Source: Haloarcula sp. CBA1127
GTDB taxonomy: Archaea; Halobacteriota; Halobacteria; Halobacteriales; Haloarculaceae
Length of the DNA: 64,000 nucleotides
Reading direction: 5' to 3'
Assembly: GCF_001485575.1 (NCBI RefSeq)
Contig: NZ_BCNB01000006.1
Coordinates: 744,001 to 808,000 of the forward strand
Below, in pieces: positions 56,270-63,663 of this stretch. The first letter of the stretch is position 1; each line of letters opens with the position of its first letter. The notes under the pieces were generated by a model. The model searched no databases. It was not told where the DNA came from and was given only the letters and a program-made list of their open reading frames with translations. Position numbers and translations under genes: made by a program.

Positions 56270-56341
56270 GCCTGGGTAGCTTAGCGGTAAAGCGCGTCCT
56301 TGGTAAGGACGAGACCCCGGATTCAAATTCCGGCCTAGGCT
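56270..56341 (+). tRNA. tRNA-Thr (anticodon GGU)
   Basis: Acceptor GCCTGGG pairs with CCTAGGC with one G-U pair, anticodon stem CGTCC/GGACG encloses TTGGTAA, so the anticodon is GGU, reading ACC/ACU. T-arm CCGGATTCAAATTCCGG is intact. The discriminator is U. An integrase gene begins 155 bp downstream, which marks this tRNA as the likely integration site of the element to the right. Confidence 0.95.
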
Positions 56342-56495
56342 TACGCGGTCTTAGCGTCTCTATCGGCTGATTTCGACCTTCTCAGGAGAGGCGAACCATG
56401 CCCAACAACTTCTGAAAAGACTACAACCCGATAGCCGCGCAGTCTTGCGATTCCAAAACGTGTCATGGCACACAAACAAACCGAGGGGTTTGCCG

Positions 56496-57812
56496 ATGAC
56501 CAACCAGCCAGATCCCCTCAACAACCTTCTCGCCGGAGATGGCACTCCAAGGGAGGGTCTTCCACCAGCTCCGGAGTCCGTGGAGTTCGACTTCCCGCTC
56601 GTCAGCGAACGCTCCCGCGAAGACCTCGAAGCATATGGGCTCAACATGGTCGAGGACTACCACGACTTCAAGAAGGAACTCCTCTGGTGGCTTGCCACAT
56701 ACGGCAAGCACCCAGAGAAAGGGCAAGGCCTCGCAGAAAGTACCCTTCAGTCAACACACTACAAGCTTGAGATCGTCTTCCGATGGCTCTGGGAGGACGA
56801 AGACGCCTACACCACAGCTCTCACTCCAGACCACGCAGACCGGTTCATCCGCCTCCTGAATCGCTCAGACGATATGGCGGACTCCAGCGTGCTTCACTAC
56901 GGCAAAGCGGTACAACGGTTGTTCAAGTACCAGAACCAGATCCACGGGACCGACTACGACTGGGAGCCGAAACCAGAGCTTAGTCAGGCTACCGGCGACA
57001 AACGTGATTACCTCCGGCGGACAGCCTTCAAGCCGCTATACCAAGCCGCGCTGGAATACAACTCTGTCAAGATCTATCATAGTGAGATGTCCTCCGAGGA
57101 GCGTGATCGGCTCAAAACGCACGTCTCACAGCGACTCGGTGTCCCCAAGTCTGAGGTCGGACCCGAACAGTTTGAACAGGCGAACTCGTGGAAGGAGCCT
57201 TCGATTATCGCTGTGACGCTGGACACTGGACTCCGTCCCATCGAAGTTGGTCGAGCCACCATAGACTGGATCGATCTTGAGAATAACGAGATCACCATCC
57301 CCAAAGACGAGTCCATCAAGAACCAAGCTCATTGGAACTGCTCGATCAAGAAACGCACATCGAGAGTCCTCGAACGGTGGTTAGAGGAGCGAGCAACGTA
57401 TGACAAGTACGACGACCGGAACGGACTCTGGCTCACGAAGCAAGGTAGCAAGTATAGCTCCAAGTCTTGCAACTACCTATTGAGCCGTCTCGTCGATGAG
57501 GGTGATCTTCCGATTCCCGACCACAAGGAGATCGCGTGGTACTCGATTCGTCACGGGGTAGCAACCTACTGGGCGAACCACATCGGTCCTCATCACGCAA
57601 AGGAACAGCTTCGTCACAAAAGCGTCACCACGACGATGAAATATCTTCACTCCGACGCGGAAACGAAGACATCGAGACAGGCGGTGCGAGATCGTGAAGA
57701 TAAGGACGACCATTTCGCGCGCTACCTGCTGTCGCGACGTCCACTGATCAACGAGCCTGCGAGTACCGCTATCTTAGTGTTTGTCTCGACAACTGGTTTC
57801 GCCTCCTCCTAA
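56496..57812 (+). CDS. Tyrosine recombinase (phage-type integrase)
   Basis: A 438-residue site-specific recombinase. The N-terminal half has a SAM-like core-binding domain (about residues 65-155). The catalytic domain has Arg in LDTGLRPIEVG, a lysine in the beta-hairpin that contains IPKDES, YSIRHG as box II with Tyr where most members have His, LRHKSV as box III, and the nucleophile Tyr in TMKYLHSD. The gene is lower in GC than its neighbours, and a slightly different codon choice fits an acquired element. ATG at 56496 is preferred over a start at 56445. Confidence 0.92.
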   Translation: MTNQPDPLNNLLAGDGTPREGLPPAPESVEFDFPLVSERSREDLEAYGLNMVEDYHDFKKELLWWLATYGKHPEKGQGLAESTLQSTHYKLEIVFRWLWEDEDAYTTALTPDHADRFIRLLNRSDDMADSSVLHYGKAVQRLFKYQNQIHGTDYDWEPKPELSQATGDKRDYLRRTAFKPLYQAALEYNSVKIYHSEMSSEERDRLKTHVSQRLGVPKSEVGPEQFEQANSWKEPSIIAVTLDTGLRPIEVGRATIDWIDLENNEITIPKDESIKNQAHWNCSIKKRTSRVLERWLEERATYDKYDDRNGLWLTKQGSKYSSKSCNYLLSRLVDEGDLPIPDHKEIAWYSIRHGVATYWANHIGPHHAKEQLRHKSVTTTMKYLHSDAETKTSRQAVRDREDKDDHFARYLLSRRPLINEPASTAILVFVSTTGFASS

Positions 57813-58014
57813 TAAATATCTTAGATAGGATACCAGAGTACATAGCTTCTGAGCACGCTACAGTCAATATTCTCAGGGTTAGACGTATCTAATACCCTAC
57901 AACTCTAATTTGCAAACACGGGGACTCCCAGAGCCACAGCTAACAGTCGGCTCCGGAGCAAACCCGGTGTAGGCGCACCGGGGCTCTGTGGGCTCCTTCG
58001 GAGGCAAGAACTCA
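57813..58014. other. Non-coding gap inside the integrated element
   Basis: About 200 bp between the integrase stop and the first small gene. It is AT-rich up to about 57910, a likely promoter area (for example AATAAATATCTTAGATAGG at about 57811-57829). A GGAGG at about 58000 is the ribosome-binding site of the next gene. Confidence 0.5.
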
Positions 58015-58248
58015 ATGAGACAAACGAACTCGATAGAGGAATCACTGTCGGACAGACACCCAAATGCGGAACGAGTCGGCCCGCATCTGGTCATCGATAA
58101 AACGGACTGGGTGCCCGGAAAGCATCCTGATCCCCACCGTCAACATGAGTCCCAGAGCGAGTATCTGGAACGGTACATTCGGTGTATCCAGTGTGGCGTT
58201 GAGGTACTGAACAAGGACGATCTCCCTCAGGAGTGTGGTGCGACGTGA
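58015..58248 (+). CDS. Small zinc-binding-like protein of the integrated element
   Basis: A 77-residue protein of unknown function. The segment RYIRCIQCGVEVLNKDDLPQEC has a CxxC pair and a later Cys, so it may bind zinc. GGAGG lies about 11 bp before the ATG at 58015, a Shine-Dalgarno start unlike the leaderless chromosomal genes. The stop overlaps the next start by 4 bp (GTGA), so translation is coupled. Similar short proteins accompany haloarchaeal proviral integrases. Confidence 0.65.
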   Translation: MRQTNSIEESLSDRHPNAERVGPHLVIDKTDWVPGKHPDPHRQHESQSEYLERYIRCIQCGVEVLNKDDLPQECGAT

Positions 58249-58745
58249 GGGTGTTGGATTGCCAAATCGATTGGCGAGAGGATGTCGCAAACGATCCAAG
58301 GCTACAGGTGTTGGTAGACGAAACACCTGACAGATCCGAGCTTCGGTTCGAAAACGAGGATGGCCTGTGGGTTGGCATCGACAACGGCTATGTCGAGTAC
58401 TTCGCGTATTCAGGCGACGGCAACGACGGCGGTTACAGTGGCCGGTGCTTCGAGATTACCACTGTTGATGATGAGCAGGTCACGCTCAAAGGCCCGTGGT
58501 CGAGTCGCGCGGGGTGCGTGAACCAGCGATCATTTGGCCCAGTGGTTGACGTTGCGATCACCACTGATCCATCAACACTGGAGCGCGGTCATACCTTCCG
58601 GACAGGGACACTGACCTTAGAGGCCGCAAAGCAAGCAATCGATCTTGTTGACGAACCGTGCCACTTGGAGCAACGGCTCAAGTACTCGGATGACGAGCCA
58701 GTGTGGGTAGCGGTGCGGGAGCAGAAGGAGGTTGAGCCAGCCTGA
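58245..58745 (+). CDS. Hypothetical protein of the integrated element
   Basis: A 166-residue protein starting with GTG at 58245 inside the stop of the previous gene. It is acidic, mostly beta, with several Cys and Trp residues and no motif I recognise. The context (integrase, SWIM finger, DUF6166 remnant) points to a mobile-element accessory gene. Function unknown. Confidence 0.6.
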   Translation: MRVLDCQIDWREDVANDPRLQVLVDETPDRSELRFENEDGLWVGIDNGYVEYFAYSGDGNDGGYSGRCFEITTVDDEQVTLKGPWSSRAGCVNQRSFGPVVDVAITTDPSTLERGHTFRTGTLTLEAAKQAIDLVDEPCHLEQRLKYSDDEPVWVAVREQKEVEPA

Positions 58746-58804: not shown

Positions 58805-59131
58805 ATGACCGTTATCGAGGAAGCACCTACGATTTTTAGCGTTACGACTCAGTCAGGTTCGGAGTACTCCGTGGACATACGTGAAGGTGTCTGCTCCTGT
58901 CCCGACTACCGCAATCGGGAGCCTAAGGGTGGCTGTAAACACCTCTGTCGGACCCGGATGGAGGTCGGACAAGTGGATGTAGATGCACTGGAGTCCGAAC
59001 TCGAACGTACTGCCAGTGAACTCCAAATGAGTGCCGAACAACTCAAACAGCAGGCCAACGATATCCACACTGGGGCCTCGAACCTGGAGGACGCTATCGA
59101 CCGGCTTCAGGAGGTGGCGGGTCATGAGTAA
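58805..59131 (+). CDS. SWIM zinc finger protein
   Basis: A 108-residue protein. The SWIM motif is in VCSCPDYRNREPKGGCKH (CxC...CxH), a zinc-binding module for nucleic acid or protein contact. The second half is a coiled coil (residues about 57-105). Small SWIM proteins are frequent in haloarchaeal viral and plasmid regions. Its end overlaps the next start by 8 bp. Confidence 0.8.
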   Translation: MTVIEEAPTIFSVTTQSGSEYSVDIREGVCSCPDYRNREPKGGCKHLCRTRMEVGQVDVDALESELERTASELQMSAEQLKQQANDIHTGASNLEDAIDRLQEVAGHE

Positions 59132-59551
59132 AAAGGAGCCGGATGTTCCATCCGAAAGCAGGGGGTTGGGCGGGGAGAACACCCTGAAACCCCTCTCAAC
59201 TGCGGGTAGTACAGAGCGTGTCGTAACGGCGGAGCAGACCGCCTATCGAGGCCGCCGTGACCCAGCCGCGTCGACCGGTGAGGAGGTTGAGGTAACGGTC
59301 GATGGTGAGCCTTTGGACTGTGGTACGATCTGCTCAGTGCCAGTCCCTCTGGGTTTGAGTTCGGTTACGGTGGATCGGGGCCAGCCCAGTTAGCGATAGC
59401 GATACTTGCCCACGCTTTCGATGATGAGGTCGCCTGCGAGTGGTATTAGCAGTTCAAGTATGAGGTCGTGTCGGAACTCCCCGAAGACGGATGGACGCTG
59501 ACGAAGCAGGATCTCGATGCGTGGCGGCGGGAGGTGGTCGGCGATGCTTAG
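59124..59551 (+). pseudogene. DUF6166-like protein gene, frameshifted and with an internal amber codon
   Basis: A ribosome-binding site GGAGGTG lies before ATG 59124. The first frame reads to 59393 and holds the N-terminus (TAYRGRRDP, VTVDGEPLD). The conserved core GFEFGYGGSGPAQLAIAILAH is found one frame away, from about 59348 to 59446; then TAG at 59447-59449 interrupts, and the same frame resumes QFKYEVVSELPEDGWTLT to a TAG at 59549-59551. So the ancestral gene has at least one frameshift (near 59310-59335) and one nonsense change. It is dead unless these are sequence errors. DUF6166 recall is from memory of the GYGGSGPAQLA core. Confidence 0.72.
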
Positions 59552-59708
59552 CGTGGATACGCTTCTTGCGCTTGAATATCTGTCTTTGGTATCCGGTTCT
59601 CCGGTTGCTGGGTCGGCTCACCGGTCAGGAAGATCCTGTCTGGTGACGAGACTTACTGAGAAGAGCTTACATAATACCCTCAGCACAATAGAAGGAGGTG
59701 ACGAATGA
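59544..59708 (+). CDS. Short hypothetical protein downstream of the DUF6166-like remnant
   Basis: A 54-residue frame from ATG 59544 that overlaps the stop of the pseudogene by 8 bp and ends in ATGA overlap with the next start. Nothing known: MLSVDTLLALEYLSL is hydrophobic and the rest is polar. The overlap chain suggests it was a real cistron of the element, possibly also decayed. Confidence 0.45.
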   Translation: MLSVDTLLALEYLSLVSGSPVAGSAHRSGRSCLVTRLTEKSLHNTLSTIEGGDE

Positions 59709-59764: not shown

Positions 59765-62566
59765 TTATGCTGTTAGATTGTATTCAATGACCTCAACACG
59801 ACCATTGTTCATAGATACGTTTCCAGTGGCGACATTTGGATCAAGTCCTTCACTAGCATCCGGATTCCAGACTCCCATCCTTACTACTACAGAGGTTCGC
59901 TCATCTATTGAGGGGGTCTTAACAAACGAACTCGTCATTATTATATCTCCTGGCTTACATTTACTGGTTGGATAGTCAATCGTGTGACTACCTCGAAACC
60001 TATTTCGGCTATTAACTTTCCTATTCTTTCCCTCATGATGACTGAACAGAATGTAATCTCTGTCCATTTCCTGCTGACATTCAAAATAATACTTGGGATA
60101 AATTTCTGTTCCAGATTCTATATCCTTCGATTGTAACTCGTATCCAACTAAGTCTAATTTATCTGAGAATTCTACCCTCACAGAGGTCGCATTCTCCGGT
60201 ACTTTTTCATACACAAATTCGCTATACCGTATCTTAGGATGGTGTTGAATTTTGGTTCTCTTTCTTATTGCTTCTGAATTTTTGCCGTATACCGTTACGG
60301 CTGTTTTGTACATTTTATATGCTCCAGATATATTCCCTTGTTTTTTGGCAAGATCTCCCTTTTTTACGTATTCATTAGATACTTTTCGCCGGAGGTTATT
60401 TGCGGTTCTGTTATCCAATAAATTATTACCAACTTTATTAATATATTCTCGCGCAGTATTATAGTCGCCATTTTGATATGATTTTTTGGCTAACTGGATA
60501 TATTCATAATCGTAATTATCCTCAAATTTATTTGATAATAACTGATATGTTTTATTGTTGGGGTTTAATTTATGGGCCTGTTCTGCTAATTGGAGTTTCT
60601 GTTTGGTGCTCTCACTATCTGCGATAGATCTATATTTTTTTTCAGCCAGCGCTGAAGATCGATTACTGCTTACTATTATCTCATCGTCAACGATTTTTTT
60701 ACTGAAAGATGACGATGATGATTCGATAATAATACTCACATTATAAGTGCCATTATTTAGTGACTCTGGAACATTATATTTATAATGCTCAAAATATGTC
60801 TTGTTTATTTTCCACTGGCTAGTCGGATACCATCCATATATGATCTCTCTATCATATTCCTTTAGGGTATTATCTTGTTTTGTGATTTGAACTTTGATTC
60901 TATATGATTGATTGGTTTTTTCTATTTTACCCCAATACCCAGTATAATGAATATTTCCGCCAGGGTAAGTGACATTCCTTTGATTGGTATACCCTGAAAA
61001 CTTAATATGGTTATTTATAGAAGTATTTGTATCGGTTTGTGGTTCAGTCGTTGAAGATGTAAAGATAGACTTTCGGACATACCAGCCATGAATCCCAGCT
61101 GACGTATAATCTCTCTGGAATTTATCATATGAATTTATGTAAGATCTTTCTGCCCAAGTACCGCGAGCCTGAATTATAGTGGGTTTCTTTTGTTGAAAAA
61201 TATAATTCCCGAATATATTTCTCTCATACCCATTATGCCCAATTGTGACATCAGCTAATCCGGCTAGGTCAATATATCTGAGATCACCATAGTAAGCATG
61301 AGCTCCCATATCCGGTACTAATAGTGTTGCGTTGTCCAAGGTATCCGATTTTTGTGCTATTGAGTACGATTTTTTTTCATGAGTCTCAACATCTTCAATT
61401 GGGACAGTTGGATTTGCCGAGGCCTCAGGAGAAGCTGAAAGACTGGGTGAAATCACTAACCCTGAAACTAGGATGACTACGATAGCTAATGATGCGAATT
61501 GGATATTCGACCTTTGAATAGATTTAGATATAACCGACGCCGTTTCTCTCATACCGATATAAACAAGAATGACGGCAAACGGAACGACTGGAGCTATAAA
61601 TCTCAATTCCATCATCCAGTCGCCACCAGTTGCCAGAGCAAATACAATTCCACCAAGTACCATCAACAGTATCACTAATCTGCTGTAGAATCGATTAGCT
61701 AGGACAGGCAGACCTGATTTGAGTGAATTAATGAATATGATGGGGATGAATAAAACTAGTAGCCACATCCTGTACTGAATGAAAAATGGTAAAATGTAAC
61801 GATATCCGCTCCTTATGTCCGAGAAAAGAGACCCACCCGTTTTATAATAAAAAGTATTCGGCATGATAAATCCGAAATACGAATAATGCCATGCGTGGTA
61901 TAACCCAAACGGAATTATAAACAGTAGTAGCCATATTATATCTCTTTTGTCAACTCCATTATTATACGAATATATCGATCTATGGGCCAACATCAAGGCA
62001 AAAAACCCAAAGCCTTCAGGTCGAGTAACTGCGACTAAAAATAACAATAATCCAGAAGTGGGGTATTTTGATTTTCCTTCCAATTCTAATATATATGTAT
62101 AGGCCGATAGAACTAGTAGTAGTGAATATAGTGGAGTCTCAAGGCCTGATAAGCTCCACGCAACAAAGGGTGTTGAGAAAGCCAAGAAAACAGATGGCAA
62201 GCCGATTAATATTGATTCCTTATTGGAAACTAATTTCCTTGTTAGAAGGTATGTGACAACCAAATTTGTCACACCAAGTAACAGGCCAAGAATATTAGTT
62301 GTTAGATACGGTTCAAATATATTTGCTCGGATAAATATCGAAATAATCAATACCCACAGCGGGTTTGAGTACCCCTCAACAACCTCGGAACCCGGGTTTA
62401 ATACAGCACCATAGCCATTTGCGATATTTTTTGCAAATCCAAAACTAATTCCAGCATCGTCAACAACCCAGTCAAAAAACAAAGATGAATGGTATACATA
62501 GACAACTATGCCAATAACAACCAATAAGTATTCAATATACCTTCTTTTTTTTAACTTGACGTTCAT
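59765..62566 (-). CDS. AT-rich GT-C type glycosyltransferase with C-terminal helical-repeat and beta domains
   Basis: A large membrane protein of 933 residues. Nine to twelve membrane helices fill residues about 10-400. The first extracellular loop has the catalytic DDAGISFGFAKNIANGYGAVLN, then NPLWVL, a pattern seen in GT-C arabinofuranosyl/mannosyltransferase-like proteins (AftB-like, GT39/83-like). A TPR-like helical stretch (about 690-790, with EQAHKLNPNNKTYQLL) and a C-terminal beta domain follow. Base composition is much lower in GC than the rest of the window. The ATG at 62566 (MNVKLKKRR) is chosen; it begins 6 bp after the epimerase stop, so the two genes form an operon. It likely transfers a sugar outside the cell. 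Confidence 0.8.
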   Translation of the reverse strand: MNVKLKKRRYIEYLLVVIGIVVYVYHSSLFFDWVVDDAGISFGFAKNIANGYGAVLNPGSEVVEGYSNPLWVLIISIFIRANIFEPYLTTNILGLLLGVTNLVVTYLLTRKLVSNKESILIGLPSVFLAFSTPFVAWSLSGLETPLYSLLLVLSAYTYILELEGKSKYPTSGLLLFLVAVTRPEGFGFFALMLAHRSIYSYNNGVDKRDIIWLLLFIIPFGLYHAWHYSYFGFIMPNTFYYKTGGSLFSDIRSGYRYILPFFIQYRMWLLVLFIPIIFINSLKSGLPVLANRFYSRLVILLMVLGGIVFALATGGDWMMELRFIAPVVPFAVILVYIGMRETASVISKSIQRSNIQFASLAIVVILVSGLVISPSLSASPEASANPTVPIEDVETHEKKSYSIAQKSDTLDNATLLVPDMGAHAYYGDLRYIDLAGLADVTIGHNGYERNIFGNYIFQQKKPTIIQARGTWAERSYINSYDKFQRDYTSAGIHGWYVRKSIFTSSTTEPQTDTNTSINNHIKFSGYTNQRNVTYPGGNIHYTGYWGKIEKTNQSYRIKVQITKQDNTLKEYDREIIYGWYPTSQWKINKTYFEHYKYNVPESLNNGTYNVSIIIESSSSSFSKKIVDDEIIVSSNRSSALAEKKYRSIADSESTKQKLQLAEQAHKLNPNNKTYQLLSNKFEDNYDYEYIQLAKKSYQNGDYNTAREYINKVGNNLLDNRTANNLRRKVSNEYVKKGDLAKKQGNISGAYKMYKTAVTVYGKNSEAIRKRTKIQHHPKIRYSEFVYEKVPENATSVRVEFSDKLDLVGYELQSKDIESGTEIYPKYYFECQQEMDRDYILFSHHEGKNRKVNSRNRFRGSHTIDYPTSKCKPGDIIMTSSFVKTPSIDERTSVVVRMGVWNPDASEGLDPNVATGNVSMNNGRVEVIEYNLTA

Positions 62567-62571
62567 CTTAG

Positions 62572-63663
62572 TTATATCCACTTGAATATCTCTTTCACCG
62601 GTTTGAGCGCTCCTTGTTCCCACGCAACCCGATGGTCTTTGCCAGCCTCCTGTTTAGTTTCTTCATATTCTTCCAAATACCACCGATACGTGTCAACCAA
62701 TGCCTTTTGATTCGAGTATTCTGGCTCCCACCCGAGATCGCACAACTTCTCAACGGAGACGTACGAGTCCTCATGAGCAGTTTCATAGACCCACGGATAG
62801 AGTGGTGACAGACTGAGTTTATCCAGTATTCGGAGAGCAAAGCGGGTCAGCGTCGCTGGTGTTCCGACAACCTGCTTCCCTGTTCCTGCCTCATCAATCG
62901 GGGCTTGGAAATCTTCTCTCATCGTCCCGTATTCGGTCGCACCCACGTTGAACGTGTCGTTCACCTCACTCCCGTCCAAAGTGAACATCATCTTGATTGC
63001 CCGAACGAGATCATGCACGTGGAGTAATTGATACTTGTTGTTTCCCCATCCGACCATCGGGATGTTTGCCCCATCCTCAATCCAGTCAAACAATACCTGA
63101 AACACGCCAAGCCTCTGTGGCCCGATAAATGTCTTCGGGCGAATGATAGGTACACACATCCCTATCCGCCGGAAGTCTCGACAGACGTTCTCGGCTTCGA
63201 TCTTCGCGTCCCCATACGGCCCCACTCCGTCTAACGGAGATTCCTCGGTGATTGGATGTGTATCGTGAGTGCCGTAGACAGCCGTGGACGAAATATAGAC
63301 CACTCGTTCAACGTCGTGCTCTTTTGCGGCCCACAACACCGAACGAGTTCCCTCAACTGTTACCTCCCAGATCTCGTCGTCGTCCCACAGAGGAAGTGCC
63401 GCCGCACTGTGGACGATCACATCTGCGTCTGCTTCCTCGATTGCCTCGGACACTCTTTCTTCGTCACGCACGTCCCCCTCTATGAATTCGATGTCTTCTG
63501 TATTGTCTTCCTCGTTGAACGGTTTGAGATCGAGTGCGGTTACGTCCCAACCCTGCTCAGCAAAGAACTGGCACGTGTGAAGTCCCAGAAAGCCAGTTCC
63601 ACCAGTGACCACGACAGAATCATACTGGCTATCCGTGGAGTCCATCTGCTCAGTCGTACTCAT
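62572..63663 (-). CDS. NAD-dependent epimerase/dehydratase (extended SDR)
   Basis: A 363-residue nucleotide-sugar enzyme. The NAD motif is VVTGGTGFLGLHT, a second acidic site DLKPFNEED follows, the catalytic site is SSTAVYGTH and the YxxxK motif is PYGDAKIEAE. It is like UDP-glucose 4-epimerase or a related dehydratase; the product sugar is unknown. It precedes the glycosyltransferase on the same strand. It is more GC-rich than the transferase, so the two probably have separate histories. Start ATG at 63663 (MSTTEQMDST). Confidence 0.9.
   Translation of the reverse strand: MSTTEQMDSTDSQYDSVVVTGGTGFLGLHTCQFFAEQGWDVTALDLKPFNEEDNTEDIEFIEGDVRDEERVSEAIEEADADVIVHSAAALPLWDDDEIWEVTVEGTRSVLWAAKEHDVERVVYISSTAVYGTHDTHPITEESPLDGVGPYGDAKIEAENVCRDFRRIGMCVPIIRPKTFIGPQRLGVFQVLFDWIEDGANIPMVGWGNNKYQLLHVHDLVRAIKMMFTLDGSEVNDTFNVGATEYGTMREDFQAPIDEAGTGKQVVGTPATLTRFALRILDKLSLSPLYPWVYETAHEDSYVSVEKLCDLGWEPEYSNQKALVDTYRWYLEEYEETKQEAGKDHRVAWEQGALKPVKEIFKWI

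Follow-up and report, generated by a model that had tools for sequence, protein, structure and literature searches.

Is a gene that changes frame partway through and then runs into a stop codon translated by recoding, misread in the assembly, or already dead? The question is raised by a DUF6166 gene (PF19663) at 59124–59551 (+) of the 64,000-nucleotide stretch of Haloarcula sp. CBA1127 DNA at C6:744001–808000 analyzed here (hereafter, the window), which exists as three pieces across two frames with an in-frame TAG codon. It is almost certainly a recently inactivated gene at the truncated, decaying end of a mobile element. By itself, the lesion is ordinary and of an already known kind: another accessory gene in decay, of little importance except as a warning against annotating recoding here. 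The part of the locus worth a specialist's time is a structured RNA leader further upstream, whose fold and spread are well supported and whose function we infer. The features discussed below are collected in Table 1.

Table 1. Features of the mobile element and its cassette, in window coordinates.
Feature	Position	Strand	Basis
tRNA-Thr (GGT), probable attachment gene of the element	56270..56341	+	ARAGORN; Rfam RF00005; integrase 104 bases downstream
Tyrosine integrase	56445..57812	+	PF00589, E 1.9e-15
Conserved structured leader RNA ending at the ATG of up1	57912..58017	+	Model R1, E 8.4e-7; model R2, 55.6 bits
Cassette gene 1 (up1), 77 aa, weak DUF7130-like C-terminus	58015..58248	+	ORF; 74% identical to Halolamina rubra
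Cassette gene 2 (up2), no named family	58233..58745	+	ORF; present in 16/392 sampled genomes of the order
Cassette gene 3, CxC...CxH, SWIM zinc-finger kind	58805..59131	+	Motif by eye, Pfam SWIM unmatched; 77% identical to H. rubra
DUF6166 N-terminal part, first frame	59124..59321	+	ORF and relatives; frame stops at 59391-59393
DUF6166 core, −1 frame (open from 59309)	59324..59446	+	PF19663 positions 24-65
In-frame TAG; Gln codon in 5/5 aligned intact relatives	59447..59449	+	Alignment
DUF6166 C-terminal part and natural stop	59450..59551	+	PF19663 positions 67-92
Next cassette gene remnant (54-aa hydrophobic protein)	59545..59708	+	ORF open; middle in wrong frame

The first frame of the DUF6166 gene begins with an ATG at 59124 and ends at a TAG stop. 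The −1 frame reads ...YDLLSASPSGFEFGYGGSGPAQLAIAILAHAFDDEVACEWY up to the internal TAG and, beyond it, QFKYEVVSELPEDGWTLTKQDLDAWRREVVGDA, ending at a stop at 59549–59551. As the original prediction had stated, the N-terminus and the conserved core GYGGSGPAQLA lie in different frames, and the internal TAG has coding sequence on either side; the core is in the −1 frame. Searched separately, the two pieces flanking the TAG both matched Pfam DUF6166, the upstream one at E 1.1e-12 and the downstream one at E 6.2e-4, with the core piece scoring 48.3 bits against a PF19663 gathering score of 27; a six-frame search recovered positions 24–92 with one TAG inside (78.9 bits, E 9.3e-22). That consecutive parts of a single domain flank the TAG is not a matter of chance. 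No single ORF spans the whole domain, given the frame change near 59322 and the TAG. The switch falls between the conserved LDC, which ends at 59321, and YDLL, which starts at 59324, so that a break previously placed somewhere within 59310–59350 is now confined to 59321–59324. In a six-frame search of the genome, the broken gene was the sole DUF6166 match, with no second, intact copy.

Homologues in the same setting show what the gene looked like before it was damaged. Seven distinct cassettes (L065, L066, L117, L119, L120, L122, and L131) carry an unbroken DUF6166 gene directly after the SWIM-like gene. A base-by-base alignment with five intact loci shows a single base missing from the window at about 59322, and a TAG where all five have CAG or CAA (Gln). 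The window gene thus carries inactivating changes relative to intact homologues found in the same gene order, as a pseudogene does. Substitutions that separate it from its relatives fall mostly at third codon positions, even in the core and C-terminal pieces; the lesions are therefore young or, less likely, the DUF6166 gene still works. The next gene, which encodes a 54-aa small hydrophobic protein in H. rubra, has two indels that shift its middle to another frame in the alignment, while the three genes upstream of DUF6166 align without a break and are undamaged. The intact homologues, their shared gene order, and the further damage in the next gene all bear out the earlier proposal of recent decay of a mobile-element gene. 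That proposal had overlooked the damage to the 54-codon gene, as well as the truncation on either side of the cassette.

The same proposal had left sequencing errors as an option beside decay, i.e., the DUF6166 gene would be intact and its breaks would come from assembly or sequencing. One of the differences is indeed a single-base indel, the commonest type of error, but the four changes lie within about 320 bases, one of them is a substitution to TAG, and the three genes upstream have none. In addition, there is no homopolymer of five or more bases at the lesions, ORFs of 100 aa or more make up 85% of the window, and this same end of the element is physically truncated. Because the lesions cluster in two genes and leave three upstream genes unbroken, error is the less likely of the two options, and we consider it improbable; decay is the one that stands.

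A programmed −1 frameshift followed by stop readthrough, together yielding the full protein, had already been called improbable and now appears extremely so: a slippery heptamer, GGGTTTG at 59351, does lie in phase for the needed shift and within the frame overlap, and the third-position bias would also fit a working gene, but homology changes frame near 59322, about 30 bases upstream of the heptamer, none of the seven intact relatives needs either event, recoding signals are not conserved, neither Pyl machinery nor a CTA tRNA was found, and the next gene is damaged as well. GGGTTTG is the only slippery heptamer in phase, and by our estimate chance alone would place one in roughly a tenth of such overlaps. 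A slip at this heptamer cannot restore the protein because the conserved YDLLSASPSG preceding it is already in the −1 frame, and programmed frameshifting at GGGTTTG was rejected on that ground. Pyrrolysine or amber suppression was rejected too: there is no CTA anticodon among the 42 of 44 genome tRNAs read by ARAGORN (L094 and L114 being the unread two), and the pyrrolysyl-tRNA synthetase model matched the genome only below its cut-off. In the window, TAG is an ordinary stop that ends 18 of 45 long ORFs.

Decay also fits the wider state of the element, which lies beside tRNA-Thr and is truncated on either side of the cassette. Residues 1–408 of the integrase share 86.5% amino acid identity with the integrase of Halolamina pelagica; the last 47 residues are unrelated, and no significant match to this tail was found in the relatives. 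At the DNA level, the match to the H. pelagica integrase (82% identity) stops at 57665, and homology resumes at about 57931. About 6.6 kb separate integrase and cassette in H. pelagica, whereas the window has unrelated sequence over this interval. On the distal side, the DNA can be matched to H. rubra only as far as 59640, and the gene that normally follows the small hydrophobic gene is absent from the window. A search of the genome and the rest of the element for a second copy of the tRNA-Thr 3′ end (the attachment site) found none, as expected if the right end of the element was deleted. GC content drops from 64% to 56% on entering the element, and the AT-rich gene that follows has 37%. The latter, directly beyond the element remnant (59765–62623, −), encodes 952 aa with a hydrophobic N-terminal half and is foreign-looking in composition. 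An NCBIfam search with nine proteins named only the integrase, below the cut-offs.

In the decay scenario, the DUF6166 gene would be the former fourth gene of a cassette carried by haloarchaeal integrative elements and laid out as leader RNA, up1, up2, SWIM-like gene, DUF6166, small hydrophobic protein, and further genes. The element would have been stripped of the DNA between integrase and cassette and of all that lay beyond the small hydrophobic gene; afterwards, its distal end would have gained the one-base loss, the nonsense change, and the two indels in the neighboring gene. The full DUF6166 protein would no longer be made, its function presumably being lost, and no more than an N-terminal piece of about 89 aa would remain. 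Expression of cassette genes 1–3, which are intact, may continue from the leader.

Loss of DUF6166 is not confined to the window. Independently, locus L118 has lost most of the gene, keeping a truncated remnant (2393–2503), and it is therefore dispensable there; L069, L121, and L123 have the first cassette genes and no DUF6166. The family itself is widespread, present in 127 of 392 sampled genomes of the order and 17 of 60 near-relative genomes. A scan of named genomes for up2 gave seven loci. Among the DUF6166 matches listed from the 60 genomes, 29 of 30 have no internal stop, the exception being the window gene; two of those listed from the 392-genome scan contain a TGA. The DUF6166 core matches 22 plasmid records and no phage record; up2 has a single distant match in plasmid records and none in viral contigs. 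Close DNA relatives of the cassette within the genus amount to weak partial matches in 2 of 31 other genomes, and a literature search on DUF6166 returned nothing. Compared with the PF19663 proteins of haloarchaeal plasmids and elements, the window gene shares positions 24–92, but its frame is broken and holds an internal stop, whereas its relatives are intact.

The cassettes of H. rubra (NZ_BBJN01000034), H. pelagica (NZ_FOXI01000003), and Natrarchaeobius chitinivorans (NZ_REFZ01000016/17) have the leader and the order up1-up2-SWIM-DUF6166 as in the window and, unlike the window's, are intact. Downstream lie a type I restriction-like HsdR protein in H. rubra, a large methylase-like protein in H. 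pelagica and in genome G222, and, in the latter, a PLD-helicase-like protein too (all named by eye). These large genes adjoin the relatives' cassettes at 1–2798 and 2701–6807 of L062, 10406–13366 of L065, and 12194–16393 of L066, and judging from their sequences they are probably defence cargo.

The leader came to light as about 100 noncoding bases upstream of up1 that are common to the relatives and fold similarly. Model R1, built from four leaders with the window copy left out, recovers that copy and finds 20 places in 19 of the 392 genomes, 11 of these 19 having no up2 match. Model R2, trained on 22 matches including the window's, extends the leader to 190 of 392 sampled genomes of the order (E 0.01 or better). 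Seven matches lie in the window's own genome; the 64-kb window holds no further copy at E 10, and none turned up at E 1 in 92 kb drawn from 30 other parts of the genome. No Rfam family matches the leader. An alignment was assembled from 58 matches (56 sequence sources). Two with poor scores, at E 0.092 and 0.099, were then removed; the latter runs antisense to another match and lacks a terminal ATG. The 56 that remain all end in ATG, as do all 20 of the weakest R2 matches listed, 17 of which are followed by a frame that stays open throughout the short stretch retrieved. The ATG endings are partly built in because the ATG belongs to the model, which includes neither the open frames nor the promoter. 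A TATA-like box precedes 31 of 56 leaders, against 13% in shuffled sequence, and in 23 of the 31 it starts exactly 24 bases before the motif. The first codons, which lie outside the model, are alike even before unrelated proteins (G at base 22 in 45/56; C at 35 and G at 37 in 46/56), although many of the leaders are close relatives. A hairpin within these first codons was viewed by eye only and is not claimed.

The leader structure was set by hand from single folds and then tested on other leaders. Over the 58 matches, in an alignment fitted to the model and its structure, standard pairs fill 94.1% of cells; shifting the partners by one to three columns lowers this to 36–43%. Both sides have changed in 24 of 25 pairs. 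Similarly, the 22 R1-found matches, again in an alignment fitted to the structure, are 95.0% paired, with 24 of 26 pairs changed on both sides. The hairpin P4 is 82.8% paired in these 22, versus 25–56% when slid. In a MAFFT consensus fold of six leaders, misalignment of the 5′ strand left no double changes visible. The leader is, then, a covarying secondary structure placed directly before start codons, as cis-regulatory leaders are. The 3′ strand of helix P1 has a second possible partner: its longest Watson–Crick run with the 11 bases before the ATG averages 6.54 in the 56 leaders, against 4.51 when partners are swapped (sd 0.17, highest of 500 swaps 4.96), and 6.11 against 4.25 (highest 4.79) in 38 dereplicated leaders. 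Because its runs exceed those of the swaps, the 3′ strand of P1 covaries with two different partners, a pattern expected of a switch.

These competing pairings suggest a mechanism. A three-helix fold, with P1 closing P2 and P3, would compete with P4, which would close just before the ATG around the ribosome-binding GGAGG. The leader would make up the entire 5′ UTR, beginning about 24 bases past the first base of the TATA-like box and ending at the start codon, with the first dozen codons conserved too. It would act as an on–off control of translation that responds to a host signal common to many plasmids and integrated elements, whose leader-preceded genes encode ssDNA-binding OB-fold proteins, SWIM proteins, a PadR-like regulator, and others. 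On balance, we favor the view that the leader represents an undescribed haloarchaeal class of regulatory RNA, in which the mutually exclusive P1 and P4 would switch translation on such a signal. In the copy from the window, the P4 run is just 3 and several P1 and P2 pairs are non-standard, perhaps owing to decay as well.

The leader can be compared with known systems. Archaeal ribosomal-protein leaders (S15 in Halobacteria, eL15, and L4) are described, in the portion of PMC7247131 consulted, as structured, cis-acting, proposed regulators; they precede ribosomal genes, whereas the window leader precedes mobile-element genes and has no Rfam family. According to part of PMC8241225, a theophylline riboswitch in Haloferax volcanii illustrates that translation can be switched by a structure in the 5′ UTR close to the start codon, although that riboswitch is synthetic and the window leader is a natural, predicted switch. 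The Weinberg 2017 survey aside, we found no description of such a leader in the literature searched, including portions of PMC7247131, PMC2864571, PMC8241225, and PMC7002113, and it seems not to have been described before. With its strong covariation, its presence in about half of the sampled genomes, and its position before unrelated mobile-element genes, it would offer a ready system for studying archaeal translational control.

The genes that directly follow the leader are diverse. They include up1; OB-fold proteins annotated as SOSS complex subunit B on Haloarcula plasmids; SWIM proteins, matching PF04434 in L180 and falling just below the cut-off in L188; and a PadR-like regulator in L174. 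A GC-rich variant of the leader (L173, L175, L176, L181–L184) precedes ORFs of odd, basic composition that are perhaps not real proteins. By blastn, the G222 leader matched no plasmid or phage record; the leader from a plasmid of the window's own genome matched 12 Haloarcula plasmid records and no phage record. One of this genome's plasmid-sized contigs matches a plasmid of Haloarcula sp. CBA1115 without a difference over 153 bases of its leader region. On contigs C5, C9, C4, and C3 (L169, L170, L171, and L172), all plasmid-sized and from the window's own genome, the leader stands before an OB-fold gene of the SOSS-B kind, whose proteins share the N-terminus MY(A/V)(T/S)NSSGKKAS.
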